DNA from: Pseudomonadota bacterium
GTDB lineage: Bacteria; CALINM01
DNA length: 32,062 nt
Direction of reading: 5' to 3'
NCBI GenBank assembly: GCA_026418415.1
Contig: JAOABK010000021.1
Location: forward strand, 1 to 32,062
The notes beneath the pieces are model-generated. The model ran no database searches. It saw only the letters and a list, made by a program, of their open reading frames with translations, and was not told the origin of the DNA. This document shows positions 274 through 9,884 of the stretch, one piece after another. Each line of letters begins with the position of its first letter. Within the stretch, counting starts at the first letter, position 1. The translations under genes and the position numbers were made by a program.

Positions 274-513
274 TCAACCACCTGCAATTGGAGGAAATAA
301 ACTTACAAAATCTCCATCTTCTAATTTTTTTTGCAAATCATTACAAATGAAACCATTAACTACTATAATTAATGGTTTCCCTGATAGTGATAAAAGATTA
401 ATTAAGTTTTCAATAGTATAATCTTTTTCCAAAGTAATCCAGTATTCTCCAACATTTTCTTGATGTTTAAACGGCAACTTCAACCCTCCAAATAATTTAA
501 CCTTTATCCTCAT
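274..513 (-). CDS. MoaD/ThiS-family ubiquitin-like sulfur carrier protein
   Basis: A 79-residue protein with the beta-grasp start typical of MoaD (MRIKVKLFGGLK) and the C-terminal tail PPIAGG. The terminal Gly-Gly is what an E1-like enzyme adenylates and thiocarboxylates to donate sulfur during molybdopterin/tungstopterin synthesis. It lies just downstream of the AOR gene; MoaD-like genes often accompany AOR genes because AOR holds a bis-tungstopterin cofactor. No MoaE is present in the window. The start is set by homology: upstream of the ATG I see no convincing Shine-Dalgarno sequence but a GC-rich hairpin (525-548). Low GC like most neighbours but unlike the adjoining AOR gene. It could equally be a ThiS-like carrier; the AOR context favours pterin cofactor synthesis. 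Confidence 0.8.
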   Translation of the reverse strand: MRIKVKLFGGLKLPFKHQENVGEYWITLEKDYTIENLINLLSLSGKPLIIVVNGFICNDLQKKLEDGDFVSLFPPIAGG

Positions 514-524
514 ATGAACAAATA

Positions 525-548
525 AAGGCCTGCACTTAAGCAGGCCTT
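525..548 (-). terminator. 9-bp perfect hairpin between AOR and the moaD-like gene
   Basis: AAGGCCTGC / GCAGGCCTT with a 6-nt loop, followed on the minus strand by TATTTGTT, a poor U tract. It could be an inefficient intrinsic terminator or a processing/stability element separating AOR from the moaD-like gene, which begins only 11 nt after the stem. Confidence 0.5.
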
Positions 549-555
549 CTAAAAT

Positions 556-2289
556 TTACCAATCGAATACTTTATCTAAATCTTCATCTTTTACCATAAA
601 TACCTTATTGTGAGGTGGTAATGGATCTTTATAGAAAAACATTGGCAGTCTATCTTTCTTCGACGTAAATCCCGCTCTTATATTAAAGTCTCTCTCCATC
701 TTCAAAATCCTCTTGCCATACTCAACCACATCACTCTCTTTCATGTTCCAACCATAAAAAGAATTTATCAAGTCCAAAAGAGCTTGGTATGTCTCAGGCT
801 GATCCATCATTGCCATCGCAACAAATAAACACATACCTGTAGAATCTATAAACGCTGTTGCAATCTGTAAAGATCTCGAAAGCTCAATCTGACCCTCTGG
901 CTTTAGTGGATCTACGAATCCACCAGATTTTAAAACATTTGTAGCTATTGAATACCCAGCAGTATGATCCGCTCCCATCGGACTCGTAGCATAAGTAACC
1001 CCTATTCCCTGAACCGCCCTCGGATCATAGGCTGGAAGCCCCTGACCCTTTACCACCGGCACTTTATCTACACCAAAGGCCCTGCCTGTATATTCCGCCC
1101 CATTGCCTATTATCCTACCCATCGGGTTCCCTACTCTTATCTCCTTGAGTAAACTTATCGCTGAATCAGCATCTCCCCACTTTATTAGCCCAGCTTCCAT
1201 CAACACCCCTATCGCTACCCCCATCTCTATGGTATCTAACCCTATATCATCACACAAAAAATCCATCATCGCTATCTTGTCAAGATCATCTATACCACAA
1301 TTGCCACCAAATGCCCAAACAGTCTCATACTCCGGCTGTTTTGTTAAATAATGACCATCTTTATCATGGTATATGCCAGAACACCTTATCACACATCCCC
1401 TATGACATCCATGGGTAGGATTGCCACCCCTCTCTTTCTCTATCTCAGCTTCCACTTCACCACTTATCCTCCTCGCACCAGCAAATTGCCCCTCCCTAAA
1501 ATTGTATGTAGGATAGGCTCCAACCTCATTTATTATATTCGTTAGCACATTGGTACCATATGCAGGTAACCCCTGACCCGTCACAGGATGTCTCTGTAAA
1601 CCCAAAACAAATCTCCTATTCGCATCCCTAAAACCCTCAGGATCCCTCGGCTCTAATGCCTTCGTCTCCGACTCATCTATTATTATAGCCTTCACCCCCT
1701 TCGACCCCATAACAGCTCCTACTCCACCCCTGCCACAATGCCTCGTGGGTCTTAACTCCATATCCGTACATGCAACAGAAGCACCTGAAAGTCTCATCTC
1801 CCCAGCTGGACCTACTGACATCACTGCTATCTTATCCCCATAATCCTTCCTCAACCTCTCTATAAGCTCATAATTGGTTAACATCTTCAAAGAATTGTCC
1901 TTTACCACCCTCACCCCACTCTTGCTCACCTCTATCTTGTATAAATCACCACCCCTTGGCTTACCCTCTATCACTACCGCACCTATACCAAGCCTCGCCA
2001 ACGCCTGACCAGGCTGTCCACCAGCATTAGACTCCTTTATACCCCCAGTTAGTGGACTCTTACAACCCACTGAAAGCCTGCCAGACATCGCAGAAGCAGT
2101 ACCACCAAGTAATCCAGGCGCTATCACAAACTTGTTCTCCTCCCCCAAGGGATGACATAAGGGCTCTACCTCACTCGAAACTATACCAGATGTTAATCCC
2201 CTACCTCCTAATCCCTCATACCTACCCATAGCCTCCTCAACTACCTCTGGTACATCCTTGCTCATATTAATCCTAATTATCTTCTTCAT
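556..2289 (-). CDS. aor: tungsten-type aldehyde:ferredoxin oxidoreductase
   Basis: 577 residues, close to the normal length of the AOR family, which oxidises aldehydes to carboxylates with ferredoxin using a tungstobispterin and one [4Fe-4S] cluster in the cytoplasm. The N-terminal pterin-binding domain runs to about residue 205 (RGGVGAVMGSKG near 187-198). Cluster ligands are probably C295, C299 and C303 plus C487 in DSTGMCLF; H442 (GADHTAGY) and the acidic PEYET stretch (319-323) lie where the W-site residues are expected. The start is well supported by AAGGAGGT eight bases upstream. It follows the radical SAM gene by 28 bp and precedes the moaD-like gene. Two oddities: the first three Cys are spaced CX3CX3C rather than the CX2CX3C of Pyrococcus furiosus AOR, and GC is near 50% in sampled stretches, against about 27% in a neighbouring one. 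Substrate unknown; a relative acting on another carbonyl substrate is possible. Confidence 0.93.
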   Translation of the reverse strand: MKKIIRINMSKDVPEVVEEAMGRYEGLGGRGLTSGIVSSEVEPLCHPLGEENKFVIAPGLLGGTASAMSGRLSVGCKSPLTGGIKESNAGGQPGQALARLGIGAVVIEGKPRGGDLYKIEVSKSGVRVVKDNSLKMLTNYELIERLRKDYGDKIAVMSVGPAGEMRLSGASVACTDMELRPTRHCGRGGVGAVMGSKGVKAIIIDESETKALEPRDPEGFRDANRRFVLGLQRHPVTGQGLPAYGTNVLTNIINEVGAYPTYNFREGQFAGARRISGEVEAEIEKERGGNPTHGCHRGCVIRCSGIYHDKDGHYLTKQPEYETVWAFGGNCGIDDLDKIAMMDFLCDDIGLDTIEMGVAIGVLMEAGLIKWGDADSAISLLKEIRVGNPMGRIIGNGAEYTGRAFGVDKVPVVKGQGLPAYDPRAVQGIGVTYATSPMGADHTAGYSIATNVLKSGGFVDPLKPEGQIELSRSLQIATAFIDSTGMCLFVAMAMMDQPETYQALLDLINSFYGWNMKESDVVEYGKRILKMERDFNIRAGFTSKKDRLPMFFYKDPLPPHNKVFMVKDEDLDKVFDW

Positions 2290-2317
2290 AAGCCTACCTC
2301 CTTACTGCTGTTTTTTT

Positions 2318-3583
2318 TTAAATTAAACAATAAAAAAGATCTCCACACCAAAGACATGCACCACAGGGGATTTCATTAGAATAACAATCATACATAAAAT
2401 CCTCAAGCTCCATTAAATCACACAAAGCAAAATTACAATCATAACAGTAGGGGAACTCATATTTTAGAACGGTCTCACGAAATTTCTTATAAACTCGATC
2501 ATTGTAGATGTCCAGTGGATTTTTTAAATTAATATTACCAAAACTTAATTTTCTAACTGATTTTTTTAGTCCGCCAATATAACAATTAAAACTATGCCAG
2601 AGAAAGTAGCAGGGCGATACATCTCCATCGACAGATATAAACATACACCCCTTTTCTATAAAATCGCAAGCTCTTTTGCTTCTTGGATGAACACCCGGTA
2701 ATTTTACAGCAATACCATTCCTTAAAGAAATATCTTTTACTTCTTCTAAAACTTCCTGAACTGTAAGTAAAAAAAAGTTATCCCTTTCCATCAATTTTTT
2801 AAGATTTAGAGTAAGTCCTTTACTTTCACTTTCATTATACATTTCCTTATAAATTTCATATACTTCTCTATTAAAACCAACATTCTCTCCCGCCATCTTT
2901 TTTGATAATTCTATCCAATCTAATAGATTATATCCCTTATCTTTTAATACCTTTGACCATTTATTAAAAATATTTACAGAGTCTTCATTATTAGTATCAA
3001 AGGCAACTTTTTGAGATAGATATTGAGAATAGGGTATTAAATGGGAAACTATTAGGTAATCAATCTTTAGGCTTATAAGTACATTCAATATTTGAATAAG
3101 CTCGTCTAAATTTTCTTTTGATAAAACAACCTCTACCCCGAATTTAAAATTTCCATAATCTTTTTTCAGGCTTGATAAAACATGAAGAGCTTCTTTAGCA
3201 TTTTCAAGACTGTGACAGTTAAGCCCACCCTCTATCCTATCAACAGAAAGACAAAAGTTTTTTAGTCCCGATTCAATAAGTTTTCTCGCATTATCTTTTT
3301 TTAAAAGAAACCCATTAGTTTGAACACTTATATCAGATTTTTTTGGCATCCTATCTTTAGCAAATTTAACAAATTCATTAATATAGGGATGTAATAGTGG
3401 CTCTCCAAAACCAGAAAAAACAAGGCTCTCTAAATGGGGAAAAATCTCCGATAGATTTTTGAAGGTATCAAAAGATAAAAACGATTTGTCTTTGATATTG
3501 ACATCCTGTTGAATAAAGCAAATATCACATTTAAGATTGCAGATATTAGAAAGCTCAACAATTAGTCTTTTACAAACTTCCAT
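2318..3583 (-). CDS. radical SAM/SPASM protein, probable AOR (tungsten-enzyme) maturase
   Basis: 421 residues. The radical SAM motif CX3CX2C is at C15, C19 and C22 and holds the SAM-binding [4Fe-4S] cluster; the GFGEP motif follows near residue 60. The C-terminal third has a SPASM-like region (CDFIEKGCMFISVDGDVSPC, about 306-325) and a Cys-rich tail (C380, C383, C388, C400, C407, C410, C413, C419), enough ligands for auxiliary clusters. Radical SAM/SPASM proteins beside AOR-family genes are commonly annotated as maturases of tungsten-cofactor oxidoreductases. I assign this one on architecture plus its position 28 bp upstream of AOR; peptide or cofactor modification is not shown by the sequence. 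The start codon has only a weak AAGAG immediately upstream. Low GC, unlike AOR. Alternative: a generic SPASM peptide-modifying enzyme, but no small precursor peptide gene is visible nearby. Confidence 0.8.
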   Translation of the reverse strand: MEVCKRLIVELSNICNLKCDICFIQQDVNIKDKSFLSFDTFKNLSEIFPHLESLVFSGFGEPLLHPYINEFVKFAKDRMPKKSDISVQTNGFLLKKDNARKLIESGLKNFCLSVDRIEGGLNCHSLENAKEALHVLSSLKKDYGNFKFGVEVVLSKENLDELIQILNVLISLKIDYLIVSHLIPYSQYLSQKVAFDTNNEDSVNIFNKWSKVLKDKGYNLLDWIELSKKMAGENVGFNREVYEIYKEMYNESESKGLTLNLKKLMERDNFFLLTVQEVLEEVKDISLRNGIAVKLPGVHPRSKRACDFIEKGCMFISVDGDVSPCYFLWHSFNCYIGGLKKSVRKLSFGNINLKNPLDIYNDRVYKKFRETVLKYEFPYCYDCNFALCDLMELEDFMYDCYSNEIPCGACLWCGDLFYCLI

Positions 3584-3644
3584 CTCTTAAAATTTATCAT
3601 ACATTATGGGAAAAGCAATATATTATTTGGAATAGAATTTTAGA

Positions 3645-4106
3645 TTATATTTGTAAAAATTTTCCTGATATTCCACCTTGAATTTTAAAAAAAATATCTG
3701 TTTTATCTTGTAAAATCATTCTTAATTCTTCAAACTCCTGTTTTTCAATCAACATTCTAATGTGCCTTAGTCCATGATAGAGAACATTTTCCAGAGAAAT
3801 TGATTCAGGACGCGGTTTCAAAAGAGAAATCGATTTTGCTTCTTCGAAAAAAGACAGTTTTTTATAATTATTATAACAAGGTTTACAATCATTTGTTAAA
3901 ACAAGATATGTAACAATTATCATATTATTCTCATAACGCCAACTTGTAGAATGAATAAAAAAAGGTGTCATTTGCATAGACTTTACCCTTTTAAAAACAA
4001 TCCCGTCAGGATCATTATCTAATTTTTCAAAAGAGAGCAATTCTCTCAGATATGATATTTCTTTTTTACAGCAAAAAAATACATAAAATATTTCTAACCC
4101 TATCAT
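3645..4106 (-). CDS. conserved-looking small protein of unknown function, coupled to ABC importer
   Basis: 153 residues, no signal peptide and no clear membrane span; I do not recognise a named family. The start overlaps the stop of the ABC ATPase by ATGA, so it is probably translationally coupled to the importer and likely works with it. Visible marks: Cys pair C12-C13, a motif HSTSWRY at about 52-58 followed by a beta-like IIVTYLVL, a CXXC at C74/C77, and an HGLRHIRML helix at 111-119 with two histidines. The HSTSWR...TYL and HGLRH pattern gives the impression of a conserved uncharacterised family rather than a random ORF. His and Cys residues could bind metal, which would suit the surroundings, but this is inference only. 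Codon use and GC match the importer genes. Confidence 0.7.
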   Translation of the reverse strand: MIGLEIFYVFFCCKKEISYLRELLSFEKLDNDPDGIVFKRVKSMQMTPFFIHSTSWRYENNMIIVTYLVLTNDCKPCYNNYKKLSFFEEAKSISLLKPRPESISLENVLYHGLRHIRMLIEKQEFEELRMILQDKTDIFFKIQGGISGKFLQI

Positions 4107-4849
4107 ACATCAGGTAAAATATATTTTTTGTTCTCAAAAATTATCTTAAAAGGAACCTCAAATATTGATTCTAAAAAACTATTATCAACATTATTTTTAT
4201 CTTTTTTAATCACTTCTCCTTTTTTTATGAATAGAATCTCATCGGAGAATAAAAATGCCATGCCTATTTCATGTATAACTGAAATTATTGTTATACCCTC
4301 AGATACAAGCCCTTTTAAAATATTTAGAATCTTAATTTGATTCTTTAAATCTAAATTTGTTAAAGGTTCATCAAGTACTATTATTTTAGGTGACTGAGCA
4401 ATTACCCTGGCAAGAAGAACAAGTTTTTGTTCACCTCCAGATAAATCTGTATATTTTCTTTCCTTAAAATTTTCAATATTTAATCTTTCTAAAGCATAAT
4501 GGGCGACTTTTATGTCATTTTTGCTTGGATAAAACCTAAAATAGGGCATTCTACCAGTAACTACAACATCAATTACTTTATAGGGATAAATGGGGTTATG
4601 AAATTGAGGTAAATAACCTATAAGCTTAGCAAGATCTCTTAAGGAATAATTTTTCAGATTATGCTCATTGACGAATATTTGTCCACTATAGTTTTTTAGT
4701 TGCCCAGAGAGAATTTTTAAAAGGGTTGATTTTCCGCTCCCATTTTTTCCAAGGATACAAGTTAATTTCCCCTTCTCTATGTCGCAGTTTATGTTTTTGA
4801 AAACTATATTATTATCATAGGAAAAACACAAACCTTTAATAACTATCAT
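4103..4849 (-). CDS. FecE/BtuD-type ABC transporter ATP-binding protein
   Basis: 248 residues, cytoplasmic ATPase of a type II (FecBCD/BtuCDF-like) importer. Walker A GKNGSGKST at 34-42, Q-loop at Q82, signature LSGGEQ at 136-141, Walker B IIVLDEP ending at D160/E161, and the switch histidine H193 are all present, so the ATPase looks functional. It starts 2 bp after the permease stop and overlaps the downstream unknown gene by 4 bp. The family imports iron-siderophores, haem, cobalamin and also molybdate/tungstate (the Haemophilus influenzae MolBCA type), so the substrate cannot be read from this subunit. The downstream AOR genes make a tungsten/molybdenum substrate worth testing. Confidence 0.93.
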   Translation of the reverse strand: MIVIKGLCFSYDNNIVFKNINCDIEKGKLTCILGKNGSGKSTLLKILSGQLKNYSGQIFVNEHNLKNYSLRDLAKLIGYLPQFHNPIYPYKVIDVVVTGRMPYFRFYPSKNDIKVAHYALERLNIENFKERKYTDLSGGEQKLVLLARVIAQSPKIIVLDEPLTNLDLKNQIKILNILKGLVSEGITIISVIHEIGMAFLFSDEILFIKKGEVIKKDKNNVDNSFLESIFEVPFKIIFENKKYILPDV

Positions 4850-4851
4850 AA

Positions 4852-5853
4852 TTAATCCCTTAACACATTATCAATTCTGGTCTTAAGAACATAAACAAAA
4901 AAAGGTGTTCCAATAAGCGTTGTAAAAACTCCTACCGGTAATTCATATTCGAATAAAGATCTTGAAAAGGTATCCACAATAACCAAAAAATTACCACCTA
5001 TTAAAAAACTAAATGGTATAACCTTTCTATTATCAGGACCTACAAACATTCTTACAAGATGGGGTATAATAAGTCCAATCATACCTATAATTCCAGAAAC
5101 TGATATTGCAGATGTAGCAATTAATGCAGTGGGAAATAAAACAAAAATTTTTTCTAAATTAGGATTTAAGCCTACCGCTTTAGACTCAGCTTCACCAAAA
5201 GACAGAACATTCAATCTAAAACTAAATAATAAAAGCCAGATAGATCCTATCAAAATTTGGATGTAAACCATTTTAACTTTCTCAAAATTAGCTGTATGAA
5301 GGTTCCCCATTAGCCAGTGAATTATGGTTTGTAGTTTAAAGGGATCAACAATAAACTGTAAAATTGTAAGAAGCGAAGTAAAGAAACCAGAAACAATAAC
5401 ACCAGATAAAATAAATTCTGTAATAGATCCCCTACCACCAAGCCTTGCAACTAAAAATGTTAAGGTTGTTGCTAATATACCAAAGCAAAAAGATGAGAGT
5501 TGTACATTTAAAAAGGGAAAAGCAACCGCTAAAGCAGCACCGAATGCTGAACCTGAAGTTAACCCAATTACATCTGGAGAAATTAATGGGTTTCTAAAAA
5601 GAGATTGTAATACTGCTCCTGAAATACTAAGTGCTGAACCAACAAGAAAAGAGAGTAAAACCCTTGGAACACGTACTTCTAAAACAATGCTTCTTATTAA
5701 TTCTAAATTATTATCATTCAATGTATTCTGGTTAAAGATTAAAATAATTTCTTTAAAACTTAAAATTTTCGTTGGGCCTATAGATATTGAAAAAAAAATA
5801 AATACTATAGTTAAAGAAATAATTAAAATAAGTCCCTTTAATCTCATAATCAT
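4852..5853 (-). CDS. FecCD/BtuC-type ABC transporter permease
   Basis: 333 residues, almost entirely hydrophobic, with the length and pattern of a FecCD permease (about 10 membrane helices). Family signatures visible: RVPRVLLSFLVGSALSISGAV near the N-terminus, the FRNPLISPDVIGLTSGSAFGA segment, and the coupling-helix region LGGRGSITEFILSG. It ends with the typical VGVFTTLIGTPFFVYVL. It forms the inner-membrane channel, probably as a homodimer with two copies of the ATPase. The start overlaps the stop of the substrate-binding protein gene by one base (TAATG), so the importer genes are translationally coupled. Substrate unresolved. Confidence 0.93.
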   Translation of the reverse strand: MIMRLKGLILIISLTIVFIFFSISIGPTKILSFKEIILIFNQNTLNDNNLELIRSIVLEVRVPRVLLSFLVGSALSISGAVLQSLFRNPLISPDVIGLTSGSAFGAALAVAFPFLNVQLSSFCFGILATTLTFLVARLGGRGSITEFILSGVIVSGFFTSLLTILQFIVDPFKLQTIIHWLMGNLHTANFEKVKMVYIQILIGSIWLLLFSFRLNVLSFGEAESKAVGLNPNLEKIFVLFPTALIATSAISVSGIIGMIGLIIPHLVRMFVGPDNRKVIPFSFLIGGNFLVIVDTFSRSLFEYELPVGVFTTLIGTPFFVYVLKTRIDNVLRD

Positions 5854-6821
5854 TAAAGCTCTTTGTTATAAAAGTATTTCATCAATCTTTTTAGTTCTCT
5901 TTTCAAATCATATGTAAATTTATCAGGATAAAGATAATGAGATATTGCTCTTGTAGCATAAACATATTTTAACGTCCACATATCATAGTGAAAAATATTC
6001 TCATACTCATATACCTTTTTGTCCTTTATCGCATTTATTCCTTGAAGCAAGGGTTCCTTTAAAATATCCTCTGGATCTTTTTTCTCATTGAACCACATAA
6101 TAATTGCATCGGGATTCCATTCTCTTAGTTTTTCTGCATTAACTACTATATGTTCTTTATATATATCTTTACAAACATTTATTCCACCAGCAATCTCTAT
6201 AATTTCATTAACTATACTATCTCCACAGGAAGTATTAAAAATACTTTGAGCCCACATAAAATAAACCCTTTTTTTGTTTTTTATATCCTTTGTCATATTT
6301 TCTATTTTCTTTATTTCTTCTTTAGAAAAACGGACTAATCCTTCTGCTTTTTTTTCTTTTCCAAAGATTTTACCAAAATCTATTATTTCCTTATAAACAT
6401 CGTCAATCTTCCTGATAAAAACTCCATAAACCGGTATATTATGTTTTTCCAGTATATCAATTACATCTTTTTGTTCACTCCAGATAATGACTATATCTGG
6501 CTTAAGAGCAATAATGCTCTCAATATTTGCAAAATCCCAATTTCCAGGAGCTGGAATTTTTTTACTTTTTATTCTCCCATCAAGAAGTGAATAAAAATTA
6601 AACACATTTCCCGTATATACATTTGTAGAGATCCCTACAATTTTATCTTGTGCTCCAAGCATAAAAATTCCACTCAATGCACTTTCGATAAGACAAACTA
6701 CCCTTTCTACTGGTTTTTTCAAAACAATCTCTTTGCCCCGAAAATCACTTATTCTTATCTCGTTAGCATATAAATTTACATGAGTTAGTAAGAAGAATAT
6801 GACAAAGATAATTTTTTTCAT
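5853..6821 (-). CDS. periplasmic substrate-binding protein (BtuF/FepB-like) of the ABC importer
   Basis: 322 residues with a Sec signal peptide (MKKIIFVIFFLLTHVNLYA, cleavage about residue 19). The mature part has the two-lobe, single-helix-hinge type III binding-protein pattern: RISDFRGKEIVLKKPVERVV, WDFANIESIIALKPDIVI, and a C-terminal lobe with REWNPDAIIMWF. It delivers ligand from the periplasm to the permease. Met/Trp/Tyr-rich stretches in the second lobe (YFMWAQSIF, DMWTLKYVYA) may line the pocket but do not identify the ligand. Shine-Dalgarno AAGGAG lies before the ATG. It sits behind a 32-bp perfect palindrome that separates it from the receptor gene. Alternatives are an Fe-siderophore, cobalamin or oxyanion-chelate binder. 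Confidence 0.88.
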   Translation of the reverse strand: MKKIIFVIFFLLTHVNLYANEIRISDFRGKEIVLKKPVERVVCLIESALSGIFMLGAQDKIVGISTNVYTGNVFNFYSLLDGRIKSKKIPAPGNWDFANIESIIALKPDIVIIWSEQKDVIDILEKHNIPVYGVFIRKIDDVYKEIIDFGKIFGKEKKAEGLVRFSKEEIKKIENMTKDIKNKKRVYFMWAQSIFNTSCGDSIVNEIIEIAGGINVCKDIYKEHIVVNAEKLREWNPDAIIMWFNEKKDPEDILKEPLLQGINAIKDKKVYEYENIFHYDMWTLKYVYATRAISHYLYPDKFTYDLKRELKRLMKYFYNKEL

Positions 6822-6840
6822 ATAGACTCCTTAAATATAC

Positions 6841-6872
6841 GGCTCAAAGGGTTAAATTTAACCCTTTGAGCC
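6841..6872 (-). repeat. 32-bp perfect palindrome between receptor and binding-protein genes
   Basis: Two 16-base arms (GGCTCAAAGGGTTAAA and its complement) meet with no spacer. The transcript would form a strong hairpin right after the receptor gene, but the following RNA (GUAUAUUUAAGGAG) lacks a U run, so it looks like an mRNA end-protecting or processing element, or a weak terminator, rather than a classical one. Confidence 0.75.
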
Positions 6873-6903
6873 AATTGGGAGGGTAAAATATGATTAACAA
6901 ACA

Positions 6904-8913
6904 TTAAAACTTTAGTACAAGAGAACCATTCATATTAAATCCTGGATCCTGAAATTGCCATGGCATCTCAAATTTTCTATCAAAGATATTATTTATGTCG
7001 AAATTAAGTTCTATTTTATAATCTTTCTTGCTAACAAGTTCTTTTATTAACTTTAAATTTAAATACTCGTAGGGACCAAAATCACGTCTACCACTCTTGT
7101 TTGTACTATCATAATATTTACCTACAAAGGTAGCATAAGGATAAATTGTAAACCCGTAGGGAAGTTTTGCAAAAACTCCTAAATTTGCCATATATTTTGG
7201 AACAAAAGGTATATCAGAATTGTTTTGATTAATATCAAAGGGATTATCAACATCAGTTTCAGTTAGAGTTGCATTTGCAAACCACCATAAATTGGGTGTA
7301 ATCTCGTTTTTAATTTCAAACTCAAGACCATAACTCTTAGTTTTCCCTGCATTTTCTGATCTTGTTTGAGAAGGAGTTGTAGAGACCACATTTTCAACTA
7401 TTGTCTCCTTTAACCTTGTGTAATAGAGCCTTAAAGCGGTATAAAAATTTTTAAAATACCCTTCTACACCAACATCATAGCTCGTTCCCTTTTCTGGTTT
7501 TAAGCCTGGATTGGGAAGTTGTCCATTTTTTCCGGGAACAAAAATATCTGTTGCTTTAAGAGTTCCTCCTACTTGTTTTGCAGAAGGTGGTATAAAGCTA
7601 TTGCCAGAATTTGCAAAGAAAGAAAAATTATTATTAAGATTATATCTAATGCCCACACTATAAATTAACCTTTGCCATGATTTCTCTCTAATGTCTGGGA
7701 TATTTCCACTAAGGAGATCAAACTCATTGTCTATATTTGCATATCTTAGACCAGCTCTTAACACAAAATTATCCATAACTAATTTTTCCTGTACATATAC
7801 ACCCACTGCTTGACTTTGAGCATCATTACCTAAACTTTTAAAACCATTTACTTCAGCATAAGTATCATAAGTTGCAAACTGATAATCAACCCCAGTTGTG
7901 AATAAACTATTCTTCATATGCCTAATATTTACATTCAGATCAATAGGGAATATTTTTTGCCTTACACCGTCATGTTCTCTTAATTGCAAATTTGCAGGGT
8001 AATTGTCCTCTCCCCATCTACGATGATAATTTCTATAACCCCCTTTTAAAGCAATATTTACATTATCGCTCCACTCATTAGTGTATCCAAAATTAACAAC
8101 ATCATAATTATGATCAAAATCCCTGTTGGGCCTGCCCGCATCTCCAGTATGCTGAGTGTGATGAGCAAAAATCGACAAACTTTCTTTATCGGGCTTAATG
8201 AAGTATGTTACCTTACCATAAAGTTTAGTCTTCTTATATTCAGGATCATCTATCATATTTAACCAGGATGGATTGGTACCATAGTTAGTATAGTTAGATT
8301 GCTCAAAATCTCCGCCAAGAAAATAGTTAAAATCACTAACCTTACCTTGATGATAAATACTGTAAAAATTTGTATCCCAAGTACCATAACCAGCTAAGAT
8401 TTTTGTAGCACTTTTATCAATTTTCTCTTTTAGTACAAAATTTGTCACACCAGCAAGTGGACTCTGAAATCCTGCAAAATCAGCACTTAAATAATTCTGA
8501 TAATGAATGGATGCAGGACCTCTAAATACCTCCACCCTTTCAAGACCATTAACAGAAAGGCTCATTGGATCAACCATATTATCAATCGGAACACCATCAA
8601 GCAAAAAAACATTATATTTAGGGCCTAATCCGCCAAAGGAACCCCAATTAGCGTCATTTCTTGAAAGGGGGTTAACAAAAGAGCCTGGTTGAGTCTCTAT
8701 AATTTCAGATAGATTTCTATTTTTAATAGGAATAACATTTATTTCTTCTTCAGTGACTACATCGATTTTTTGAGTTACATATTGTTCAGATTGTTCAATT
8801 TTTGATTCTGTTACAACTATTTCCCCTAATTTATAACTTGTAACATTTTCTGCGTTAGAAAGGCCATTAAAACCCATAAACAAAAGTATTAAACAAAAAA
8901 TCTTTCTTAGCAT
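6904..8913 (-). CDS. TonB-dependent outer-membrane receptor
   Basis: 669 residues. Signal peptide MLRKIFCLILLFMGFNGLSNA, then a TonB-box-like segment EIVVTES (31-37). A plug domain follows to roughly residue 165 (LSEIIETQPGSF, VFLLDGVPIDNM, VEVFRGPASIHY), then a beta-barrel of aromatic-rich alternating strands ending in GSLVLKF with the terminal Phe used by the BAM machinery. Such receptors take up metal chelates, cobalamin or other scarce ligands using TonB energy; a TonB gene lies at 24782-25720. Strong GGAGG 4 bases before ATG. The gene is flanked by hairpins on both sides (8974-8994 and 6841-6872), which would let its expression differ from the importer genes behind it. The barrel does not reveal the ligand; the ABC importer and AOR cluster suggest a metal complex. 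Confidence 0.92.
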   Translation of the reverse strand: MLRKIFCLILLFMGFNGLSNAENVTSYKLGEIVVTESKIEQSEQYVTQKIDVVTEEEINVIPIKNRNLSEIIETQPGSFVNPLSRNDANWGSFGGLGPKYNVFLLDGVPIDNMVDPMSLSVNGLERVEVFRGPASIHYQNYLSADFAGFQSPLAGVTNFVLKEKIDKSATKILAGYGTWDTNFYSIYHQGKVSDFNYFLGGDFEQSNYTNYGTNPSWLNMIDDPEYKKTKLYGKVTYFIKPDKESLSIFAHHTQHTGDAGRPNRDFDHNYDVVNFGYTNEWSDNVNIALKGGYRNYHRRWGEDNYPANLQLREHDGVRQKIFPIDLNVNIRHMKNSLFTTGVDYQFATYDTYAEVNGFKSLGNDAQSQAVGVYVQEKLVMDNFVLRAGLRYANIDNEFDLLSGNIPDIREKSWQRLIYSVGIRYNLNNNFSFFANSGNSFIPPSAKQVGGTLKATDIFVPGKNGQLPNPGLKPEKGTSYDVGVEGYFKNFYTALRLYYTRLKETIVENVVSTTPSQTRSENAGKTKSYGLEFEIKNEITPNLWWFANATLTETDVDNPFDINQNNSDIPFVPKYMANLGVFAKLPYGFTIYPYATFVGKYYDSTNKSGRRDFGPYEYLNLKLIKELVSKKDYKIELNFDINNIFDRKFEMPWQFQDPGFNMNGSLVLKF

Positions 8914-8957
8914 ATTTCCTCCTTAAATTATTTTGTATTTTATTATCAAAGTAATTT

Positions 8958-8994
8958 AAAAATAAAAAATTACGGCGGTTCAAAAAGAACCGCC
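8958..8994 (-). terminator. intrinsic terminator or attenuator upstream of the TonB receptor
   Basis: Perfect 8-bp stem GGCGGTTC/GAACCGCC with a 5-nt loop, then GTAATTTTTTATT on the minus strand. It lies between the methyltransferase stop and the receptor start, so the receptor needs read-through or its own start; I see no clear promoter in the 60 bp after it. Confidence 0.75.
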
Positions 8995-9018
8995 CAACAA
9001 AAGGGGGAATAGCATGCA

Positions 9019-9723
9019 TTAAAATTTTCTATACCAAACATACATGCCAAATAAATCATTACTCTTACTCCAAAAATGATCATTATAAAAAACCAGATTT
9101 CTTTTAACCTGATTTTTTTCGAAATCACTTAAACTTCTTGCTATTCTAAATTCATAGTGTTCGTATGCTTCATTTAATGAATGATAGGCGTAAGATGTGT
9201 CTGCATAAAAAACCCTGAGCAAATTTAGACTATATTTTTCATAACTAAGTTTAATCTTTCCTTTAACATCTTTTAATTCTGAAACAAGTAATATGCACTT
9301 TGCTCCTAAAGAAAATACTTTATTCAGAGCCATTTCAAAGGGCATATCCATTAGATGTAAGCTATTACAAGCAATAACAAGATCATAATTTTGGTAGGTT
9401 AGAATCGGGATATCTTCCCATCTTCTTGGGTCAACATTTAATGTATGGACTTGCCTTTTTTGGGCCTCTTGAAACAAAAGGTCTCTCATTTTGTCAGAGG
9501 GCTCAATAATTGTTACATCACATCCCAAGCTTATTAGGGGTAAAGCAAGAACTCCATTACCAGCACCAATATCAATTACTTTAAAATCTGGCTCAACAAT
9601 CTTGTAAAGAAATTCTAAAACATGATTGTGAAATGTATTATGCTTGATCCATAAATCATACCATTTAGCATACCTTTCCCAAAAAGTAACCGCTGGTGAG
9701 ATAGCATAATTTTCTAAATACAT
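9019..9723 (-). CDS. class I SAM-dependent methyltransferase
   Basis: 234 residues with the Rossmann methyltransferase core: motif I VIDIGAGNGVLALPL (49-63), an acidic residue at the end of strand 2 (E74 in TIIEPSD) that should bind the SAM ribose, and the post-motif segment YDLVIACNSLHLMDM. No signal peptide or membrane span, so it is cytoplasmic. It is the first gene of the receptor/importer block, starting 5 bases after GGGAGG, behind the promoter at 9857-9884 and a structured leader. Its substrate is unknown; methyltransferases of this type act on small molecules such as metallophores, quinones or bioalkylated oxyanions. In this setting, modification of an imported or exported metal ligand is an inference only. 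The terminator-like hairpin after it may make it the most abundant message of the block. Confidence 0.85.
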   Translation of the reverse strand: MYLENYAISPAVTFWERYAKWYDLWIKHNTFHNHVLEFLYKIVEPDFKVIDIGAGNGVLALPLISLGCDVTIIEPSDKMRDLLFQEAQKRQVHTLNVDPRRWEDIPILTYQNYDLVIACNSLHLMDMPFEMALNKVFSLGAKCILLVSELKDVKGKIKLSYEKYSLNLLRVFYADTSYAYHSLNEAYEHYEFRIARSLSDFEKNQVKRNLVFYNDHFWSKSNDLFGMYVWYRKF

Positions 9724-9850
9724 AAAAACCTCCCGAGTTTTGCTTTCCTTCAGGAAGTTTTAAGACACCTTCTTGGTGGGATTAAAAATTGATTAGCAAA
9801 AAATATTTAACCTATGATGATGATAATACTGATGTCTTCTGACATCTGAT
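9724..9850 (-). promoter_or_regulatory. ~127-nt structured 5' leader of the methyltransferase/receptor block
   Basis: From the predicted start near 9850 to the ATG. It holds a hairpin/palindrome GATGTC-4-GACATC (9831-9846), a short hairpin CACC-5-GGTG (9766-9778) and a hairpin TTCC-4-GGAA (9745-9756). The anti-Shine-Dalgarno UCCC (9778-9781) can pair with the GGGAGG ribosome site (9729-9734) and close a small junction. This is compatible with ligand or protein control of translation, but the helices are short. It does not match riboswitch classes I could recall. Confidence 0.4.
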
Positions 9851-9856
9851 ATAGAG

Positions 9857-9884
9857 ATTTTACAAATTTTTATGGATAAGTCAA
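9857..9884 (-). promoter_or_regulatory. sigma-70 promoter of the methyltransferase/receptor block
   Basis: -35 TTGACT (9879-9884), 16-bp spacer, -10 TAAAAT (9857-9862). A 6+6 bp palindrome GATGTC-TTCT-GACATC (9831-9846) lies just past the predicted start point and could be a repressor operator as well as an RNA hairpin. Confidence 0.65.

Follow-up and report, generated by a model that had tools for sequence, protein, structure and literature searches.

The uptake of nickel by a TonB-dependent receptor (FrpB4) and by a FecBCD-type importer (NiuBDE) has been established in Helicobacter pylori, where FrpB4 is repressed by NikR (PMC5140060). The present study deals with a gene block, and with the leader RNA ahead of it, in a contig of a Pseudomonadota bacterium (JAOABK010000021.1), which was analysed over its whole length of 32,062 nucleotides and is called the window here. 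The block encodes a methyltransferase, a TonB-dependent receptor, a FecBCD-type importer and a 153-aa protein, followed by an aldehyde:ferredoxin oxidoreductase (AOR) module. With FrpB4 and NiuBDE (CeuE/FecDE), which take up nickel and cobalt, it shares the anatomy of receptor and FecBCD-type importer, here encoded together, and it would work in a similar way. It differs in being a single cassette that also encodes a methyltransferase and a 153-aa protein of predicted Nudix-like fold, and in its predicted control by an RNA leader. In another group of systems, nikK and nikL (DUF4198/NikK-like and NikL-family genes) have been assigned to nickel transport with nickel energy-coupling factor (ECF) transporters (PMC545781). 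These NikMNQO/CbiMNQO systems with NikK/NikL have a transporter family different from that of the window cassette, but the same RNA leader and the same neighbour genes are found with them in relatives, and such an operon in the window's genome has a leader hairpin. The molybdate importer MolBCA (HI1470-1472) of Haemophilus influenzae is FecBCD-type like that of the window and its binding protein is a distant homologue; it comes without TonB receptor, methyltransferase or nickel regulon, and the homology is no closer than to proteins for other substrates.

Two kinds of leader RNA are of interest for comparison. The NiCo (czcD) riboswitch, which has a defined four-stem aptamer, turns on efflux; it is an RNA leader tied to nickel and cobalt genes, as here, whereas the window-type leaders are simple strings of hairpins with variable spacing and precede uptake genes. 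ANTAR antiterminator leaders carry dual small hairpins that compete with a terminator and in this may resemble the present leaders. Their loops are hexanucleotides with A1 and G4, in contrast to the N-GAA tetra- and pentaloops closed by C-G described below. To our knowledge, no element has been described that controls bacterial nickel uptake at the RNA level.

Our analysis suggests, with a probability of about 0.7, that the block is a nickel or cobalt uptake module under an RNA-switch leader, juxtaposed to an unrelated AOR module. The novelty lies in the leader RNA, which possibly represents a regulatory RNA class of its own. The genome of the window (G000) is 2.03 Mb in 161 contigs, of which the window is one complete contig (C75). 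Of the genomes used for comparison, G001 shares the genus of the window and G002 belongs to a sister genus in the same family; the next nearest shares only the domain, and the lineage is thus very sparsely sampled. Cassette conservation, separability, the shared leader, and the pairing and switching geometry were computed.

The uptake cassette and its leader RNA

Nine open reading frames lie in the block, all on one strand. The list of reading frames and the Pfam and NCBIfam matches agree with the coordinates and identities given to these genes in the original prediction, and its view of the block as one of metal uptake is accepted. The uptake cassette and its leader have the following features.

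9857-9884, minus strand: sigma-70-like promoter TTGACT-16-TAAAAT, 10/12 consensus matches, weak alone
9831-9846, minus strand: leader hairpin H1, GATGTC-AGAA-GACATC, stem sequence varying among genomes with pairing kept
9766-9778, minus strand: leader hairpin H2, CACC-AAGAA-GGTG, from a hairpin scan
9745-9756, minus strand: leader hairpin H3, TTCC-TGAA-GGAA, incompatible with a helix (about 9761-9750 with 9735-9724) sequestering the Shine-Dalgarno (SD) sequence
9729-9734, minus strand: SD sequence GGGAGG of the methyltransferase gene
9019-9723, minus strand: class I methyltransferase dependent on S-adenosylmethionine (SAM), leading gene of the cassette, 234 aa, class I methyltransferase family match
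6904-8913, minus strand: TonB-dependent outer-membrane receptor, 669 aa, TonB-dependent barrel and plug
5853-6821, minus strand: periplasmic binding protein, FecB/BtuF-like, 322 aa, Peripla_BP_2
4852-5853, minus strand: FecCD-type permease, 333 aa, FecCD
4103-4849, minus strand: ABC transporter ATPase, 248 aa, ABC_tran
3645-4106, minus strand: 153-aa protein, final gene of the cassette, without Pfam/NCBIfam family, predicted Nudix-like fold

The leader (9724-9850) lies between the promoter and the start codon and holds three small hairpins with N-GAA loops. In the minimum-energy fold of the window AAAACTTCCTGA is paired with CGGGAGGTTTTT; when the SD sequence is held free H3 forms instead, and this fold is weaker by 7.3 kcal/mol. 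Neither the window leader nor that of G002 has a terminator, and in both the 5' arm of the last hairpin pairs with the SD region, which is better than the free-SD fold by 7.3 and 8.8 kcal/mol, respectively. The fold z-score of the window leader is only -1.92. Since the scan gave 61 promoter-like sites against 46.9 expected, the promoter at 9884-9857 is weak when taken alone. Its position relative to the leader hairpins is the same in L006, L075, L126, L127 and other loci, and the promoter proposed earlier is backed by the conserved leader downstream.

The same kind of hairpin recurs in relatives. In the leaders of 24 methyltransferase homologues, 62 C-closed hairpins with an N-GAA loop were counted as compared to 0.75 expected from dinucleotide shuffles, and only one of these leaders has no such hairpin. 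In most of them an intrinsic terminator shares bases with the second hairpin, GCC[AYGAA]GGC. The 3' arm of this terminator, TTCGTGGCTT, can pair with the 5' arm and loop of the hairpin, and because of this complementarity hairpin and terminator are mutually exclusive. In some leaders it is the 3' half of the hairpin that takes part in the terminator. The terminator units showed two-sided change in 9 of 17 pairs as against 4.1 when shuffled, a value not reached in any of 500 shuffles. For H1, in which every stem position varies, 95 of 96 cells were paired against a mean of 54 for shuffled arms, as counted by script; these hairpins had been chosen for pairing, and the comparison of 62 with 0.75 in shuffled sequences is for this reason the fairer one. 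No family of Rfam 15, the NiCo (czcD) riboswitch included, scored above its gathering threshold at the leaders, and permissive searches gave nothing credible there; the known riboswitches of Rfam 15 are therefore ruled out as the identity of the leader.

Reach of the leader beyond the methyltransferase

A covariance model (R1) was built from 18 terminator units and run over 30 genomes, and 20 of its sites that do not precede a methyltransferase gene were inspected. Half of these (L187, L188, L189, L193, L196, L199, L202, L203, L205 and L206) are followed by recognisable nickel/cobalt operons, and five (L191, L192, L194, L197, L201) by TonB, TonB-ExbBD, a receptor or the cassette of G491. One site (L204), beside an operon like those of RND metal efflux, is ambiguous. 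The targets include NikK-like DUF4198 genes, NikL-family genes, CbiMNQO, TonB-ExbB-ExbD and TonB-dependent receptors. In G002 the leader stands ahead of barrel-CbiM-CbiQ-CbiO-HypC-HypD genes, that is, a nickel transporter joined to hydrogenase maturation. The orthologous NikMNQO-type operon of G000 (CbiM fused to PDGLE, CbiQ, CbiO) has GCC[ACGAA]GGC right after its promoter (L224, 628-638). An R1 match at C106 of G000 (E 0.0018) was too weak to count.

In the phylum of G263, which is other than that of the window, methyltransferase homologues were found in 31 of 325 genomes, often beside CbiM/N/Q/O, a TonB-dependent receptor, TonB and CobN. R1 matches at E <= 1e-6 were present in 70 of the 325 genomes, 27 with the methyltransferase and 43 without; four genomes have the methyltransferase only and 251 have neither. 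The p value of this co-occurrence (1.6e-16) ignores relatedness, and R1 was itself built from methyltransferase leaders. The methyltransferase was considered as a trans-acting regulator of the leader and this was rejected: ten genomes with very strong leader matches (E < 1.5e-11) have no methyltransferase at E 1e-25, because of which the methyltransferase looks like a target of the leader and not its regulator. Weak methyltransferase matches in G044, G189 and G321 (E ~1e-14) belong to a different family with unrelated neighbour genes.

Taken over all these loci, we think it fairly probable that the N-GAA hairpins, two to four in number and one of them exclusive with a terminator or SD helix, are a new class of cis-regulatory RNA, and that a whole regulon for the uptake of nickel/cobalt, in two or more bacterial phyla, is under their control through a metal-responsive regulator or through the metal directly.

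A few further sites were noted. At L190 (G562:C2) a strong leader element (E 1.4e-11) lies ahead of a gene for a multihaem cytochrome c and not of a transporter gene. At L221 (G673:C36) a leader element precedes genes for an FmdE-DksA-zinc-finger protein and a different methyltransferase, with a divergent AOR gene alongside. Small proteins of 65-90 aa with the motif HW.EHN.EHA..Y..WA and without Pfam match recur in nickel/cobalt loci (L205 2772-2984, L213-L216, L219, L075 6766-6965).

Two separable modules

Gene content and order indicate that the block is two juxtaposed modules, the uptake cassette (3645-9723) and the AOR module (274-3583). In G002 the order is TonB, methyltransferase, receptor, binding protein, permease, ATPase and 153-aa protein, and then come type IV pseudopilins; radical SAM, AOR and MoaD genes are not among the next genes. 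In G568, of another phylum (L131), methyltransferase, TonB, receptor, binding protein, permease, ATPase and 153-aa protein follow in this order. G491, also of another phylum, has TonB, receptor, binding protein, permease, ATPase and 153-aa protein together (L191), so that the methyltransferase is part of the recurring cassette in two of these three genomes. Identity to the window proteins is 46-67% for the binding protein, 54-61% for the receptor and 50-65% for the permease. No AOR or other recognised molybdenum or tungsten gene adjoins the orthologous cassette in any of the three. Contig C53 of G491 also carries a paralogous cluster, methyltransferase-ExbBD-TonB-receptor-binding protein-permease-ATPase-CobN (L148). 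This contig thus holds both versions, with CobN as the last gene of one and the 153-aa gene as the last of the other (L191), and a leader element lies close to each.

The AOR module has the following features.

2318-3583, minus strand: radical SAM/SPASM putative metalloenzyme maturase, 421 aa, TIGR04311 at 407.7 against a cut-off of 400
556-2289, minus strand: AOR family protein, 577 aa, AFOR_N and AFOR_C, 53.7% identical to the AOR of G189
524-549, minus strand: terminator-like hairpin between the AOR and MoaD-like genes
274-513, minus strand: MoaD/ThiS-like sulfur carrier, 79 aa, ThiS match (Pfam/NCBIfam), C-terminal GG

The unrelated genome G189 (L073) has its AOR, MoaD and a TIGR04311 radical SAM protein together without uptake genes. 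In G001 the order rSAM-AOR-MoaD stands at a contig end (L227), and searches of this genome for the methyltransferase and the 153-aa protein gave no match; as its assembly is about 91% complete, this absence is suggestive only. Two more AORs are encoded on other contigs of G000 with no uptake genes nearby. TIGR04311 was also tried as a tie to the cassette, and in none of the four other genomes which carry it does the cassette adjoin. A general rule of AOR linkage is ruled out by the cassette alone in G002, G568 and G491 and the triad alone in G189. The triad is like known AOR operons with a MoaD-like carrier and a radical SAM maturase (TIGR04311/TIGR04317), with TIGR04311 and not TIGR04317 as maturase and otherwise nothing unusual. 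By its family matches it is an ordinary member of known families, the AOR being a putative tungstopterin enzyme.

Because terminator-like hairpins occur within the block at 8994-8974, 6873-6840 and 549-524, it is at most a putative single transcription unit. No terminator-like hairpin was found in the 61 bp that separate the 153-aa gene from the radical SAM gene, so that read-through from the uptake genes into the AOR module is possible. The hairpin at 524-549 is strong; it follows the AOR stop and lies about 10 bases ahead of the MoaD-like ATG, and it may lower or control MoaD expression. At 1-270 of the plus strand, convergent with MoaD and truncated by the contig end, a C-terminal Fis-type helix-turn-helix (PF02954) is encoded, which probably belongs to a sigma-54 activator.

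The 153-aa protein

The invariant residues of this protein are H52, W56, R57, H111 and H115 (HST.WRY, H..H). In a fold search the best-scoring matches were Nudix proteins, with Z up to 8.6 and no Foldseek hit at E < 0.001. The predicted model suggests a Nudix-like fold, and the conserved residues do not form a Nudix box. The family (L022-L059), for which there is no Pfam or NCBIfam model, is widespread in Chloroflexi and Actinobacteria in unrelated settings. On account of these settings and of a Nudix-like fold without the box, it was rejected as a guide to function. In Oscillochloris (L011/L039) a relative comes after an SsuABC-type transporter, beside a BadF-type activase and a C_GCAxxG_C_C protein.

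Discussion

The metal carried by the cassette is best read as nickel or cobalt, the choice being suggested by the relatives. Neighbours of the methyltransferase homologues include CbiM, CbiN, CbiQ, CbiO, TonB-ExbB-ExbD, receptors, DUF4198 proteins, an SBP_bac_5 binding protein, DUF2162, CbiZ and CobN; at L075, L127 and L148 the homologues lie beside CbiM/N/Q/O, TonB/ExbBD, a TonB-dependent receptor, genes for a solute-binding protein, FecCD and ABC protein, and CobN. The NikL-family proteins match NF058648 below threshold. G000 has a [NiFe] hydrogenase and therefore a need for nickel. Cobalamin riboswitches stand near three of the methyltransferase-homologue loci, because of which cobalt is a plausible alternative.

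Other substrates have to be weighed against nickel and cobalt. The original prediction put forward the TonB/FecBCD system as a candidate uptake route dedicated to the tungstoenzyme. It would bring in tungstate or molybdate, possibly bound to a metallophore, to supply the AOR downstream. It is true that both halves lie on the same strand with no terminator between them and that the profile of the binding protein reaches the molybdate protein MolA (HI_1472, E 1.2e-27). This homology, judged from the profile, is real but appears unspecific, as 4ovk, whose function is not known, scores better (9.8e-41) and 4hn9 (iron complex, 5.2e-26) about equal, with the nickel protein CeuE/NiuB at 3.6e-18. The genome moreover has a TupA-TupB-TupC set on contig C139 (L082; best match of TupA NF041772, 233.6 bits, under the 400-bit cut-off), and TupABC-like and ModABC-like sets are present in G001 and G002. 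The cassette occurs without the AOR in three genomes, the triad without the cassette in G189, and the leader is common to Nik/Cbi operons; a tungsten or molybdate importer is on these grounds very unlikely. Thus gene identities, direction, promoter and metal uptake stand from the earlier interpretation and the dedicated link to tungsten is not supported. The orthologous importers of G002, G568 and G491 lack an adjoining AOR, which agrees with the refuting condition set in the original prediction, except that nickel/cobalt genes are the neighbours and not the siderophore or cobalamin genes that had been named. Import of cobalamin, cobinamide or another corrinoid by a BtuB-BtuFCD-like system, with the methyltransferase in corrinoid salvage, would fit the best NCBIfam match of the permease (archaeal BtuC, 233 bits) and the CbiZ, CobN and cobalamin riboswitches near relatives. 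We hold it to be unlikely, as the equivalog cut-offs are missed by far (BtuC 233 against 461, TonB-B12 50 against 599.7, BtuF 59.6 against 234, BtuD 107 against 281), the Rfam 15 search found no cobalamin riboswitch in the window, that of G000 serves cobalamin biosynthesis, and NikK/NikL operons as well as Nik operons linked to hydrogenase carry the same leader. It is highly improbable that a ferric siderophore or haem is the substrate: the FecCD, TonB-siderophore and haem receptor models all score, below cut-off, but no iron or haem gene recurs by the conserved cassettes, whose recurring partners are CbiM/N/Q/O, DUF4198, CobN and TonB/ExbBD.

The leader hairpins could also be mere intrinsic terminators or DNA operators with no switching. 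R1 models a terminator, its weak matches elsewhere are probably ordinary terminators, and the palindrome of H1 could be a dyad operator. Such an explanation is unlikely, since the stems differ in sequence but still pair, around an N-GAA loop that is constant, and since hairpins and terminator or SD helix use the same bases across lineages, in two forms of output. Some observations weigh against a nickel/cobalt module under a switching leader. The window's own leader is of the translational form and is not matched by R1, which describes the terminator form; its membership rests on the hairpin loops, the geometry and the orthologous gene behind it. Four of the 20 R1 sites away from methyltransferase genes (L190, L195, L198, L200) precede genes without known nickel link. 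The binding protein, though only distantly homologous to MolA, is nearer to it than to nickel CeuE/NiuB, and CobN, CbiZ and cobalamin riboswitches near some relatives make cobalt or corrinoid a real alternative to nickel.

In the nickel or cobalt reading, module 1 (3645-9723, with the leader to 9884) would serve high-affinity uptake. The receptor would take the chelated metal through the outer membrane, and the FecB-type binding protein, FecCD permease and ATPase would carry it through the inner membrane. The methyltransferase would be accessory and probably makes or modifies the chelator or frees the metal, chelator modification being the simplest guess; the 153-aa protein, putatively Nudix-like, would be accessory also. 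When two to four short N-GAA hairpins form, the ribosome-binding site would be free (window, G002) or the terminator blocked (most relatives). In the alternative state the 5' arm of the last hairpin would pair with the SD sequence or with the 3' arm of the terminator, and expression would be off. With nickel or cobalt scarce, a regulator could bind the N-GAA loops and stabilise the small hairpins, and the message would be completed or translated; with sufficient metal the terminator or SD helix would form. The opposite ON/OFF sign is possible in principle and would be odd for uptake genes. Because the spacing is variable, no junction is conserved and only the loops and the closing pair are kept, several copies of a loop-binding regulator are likelier than one folded aptamer, and a protein which reports nickel/cobalt status is more likely than an aptamer. 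What we infer here is the metal, the RNA ligand or regulator, the sign of the switch, and what the methyltransferase and the 153-aa protein do. Module 2 (274-3583), the AOR with its TIGR04311 maturase and MoaD-like carrier, would be unrelated in substrate and perhaps partly transcribed by read-through.

A search of the open literature found neither a TonB route for molybdenum or tungsten nor an RNA element for nickel uptake. A TonB-dependent tungsten route would have been new had it held, and the evidence removes it. The leader RNA, which is absent from Rfam 15, is a common link among nickel or cobalt genes of the ECF, TonB/FecBCD and energising TonB-ExbBD kinds. It opens the question of the role of the methyltransferase, and gives a handle for finding the regulator and for predicting nickel/cobalt transporters in little-studied phyla.

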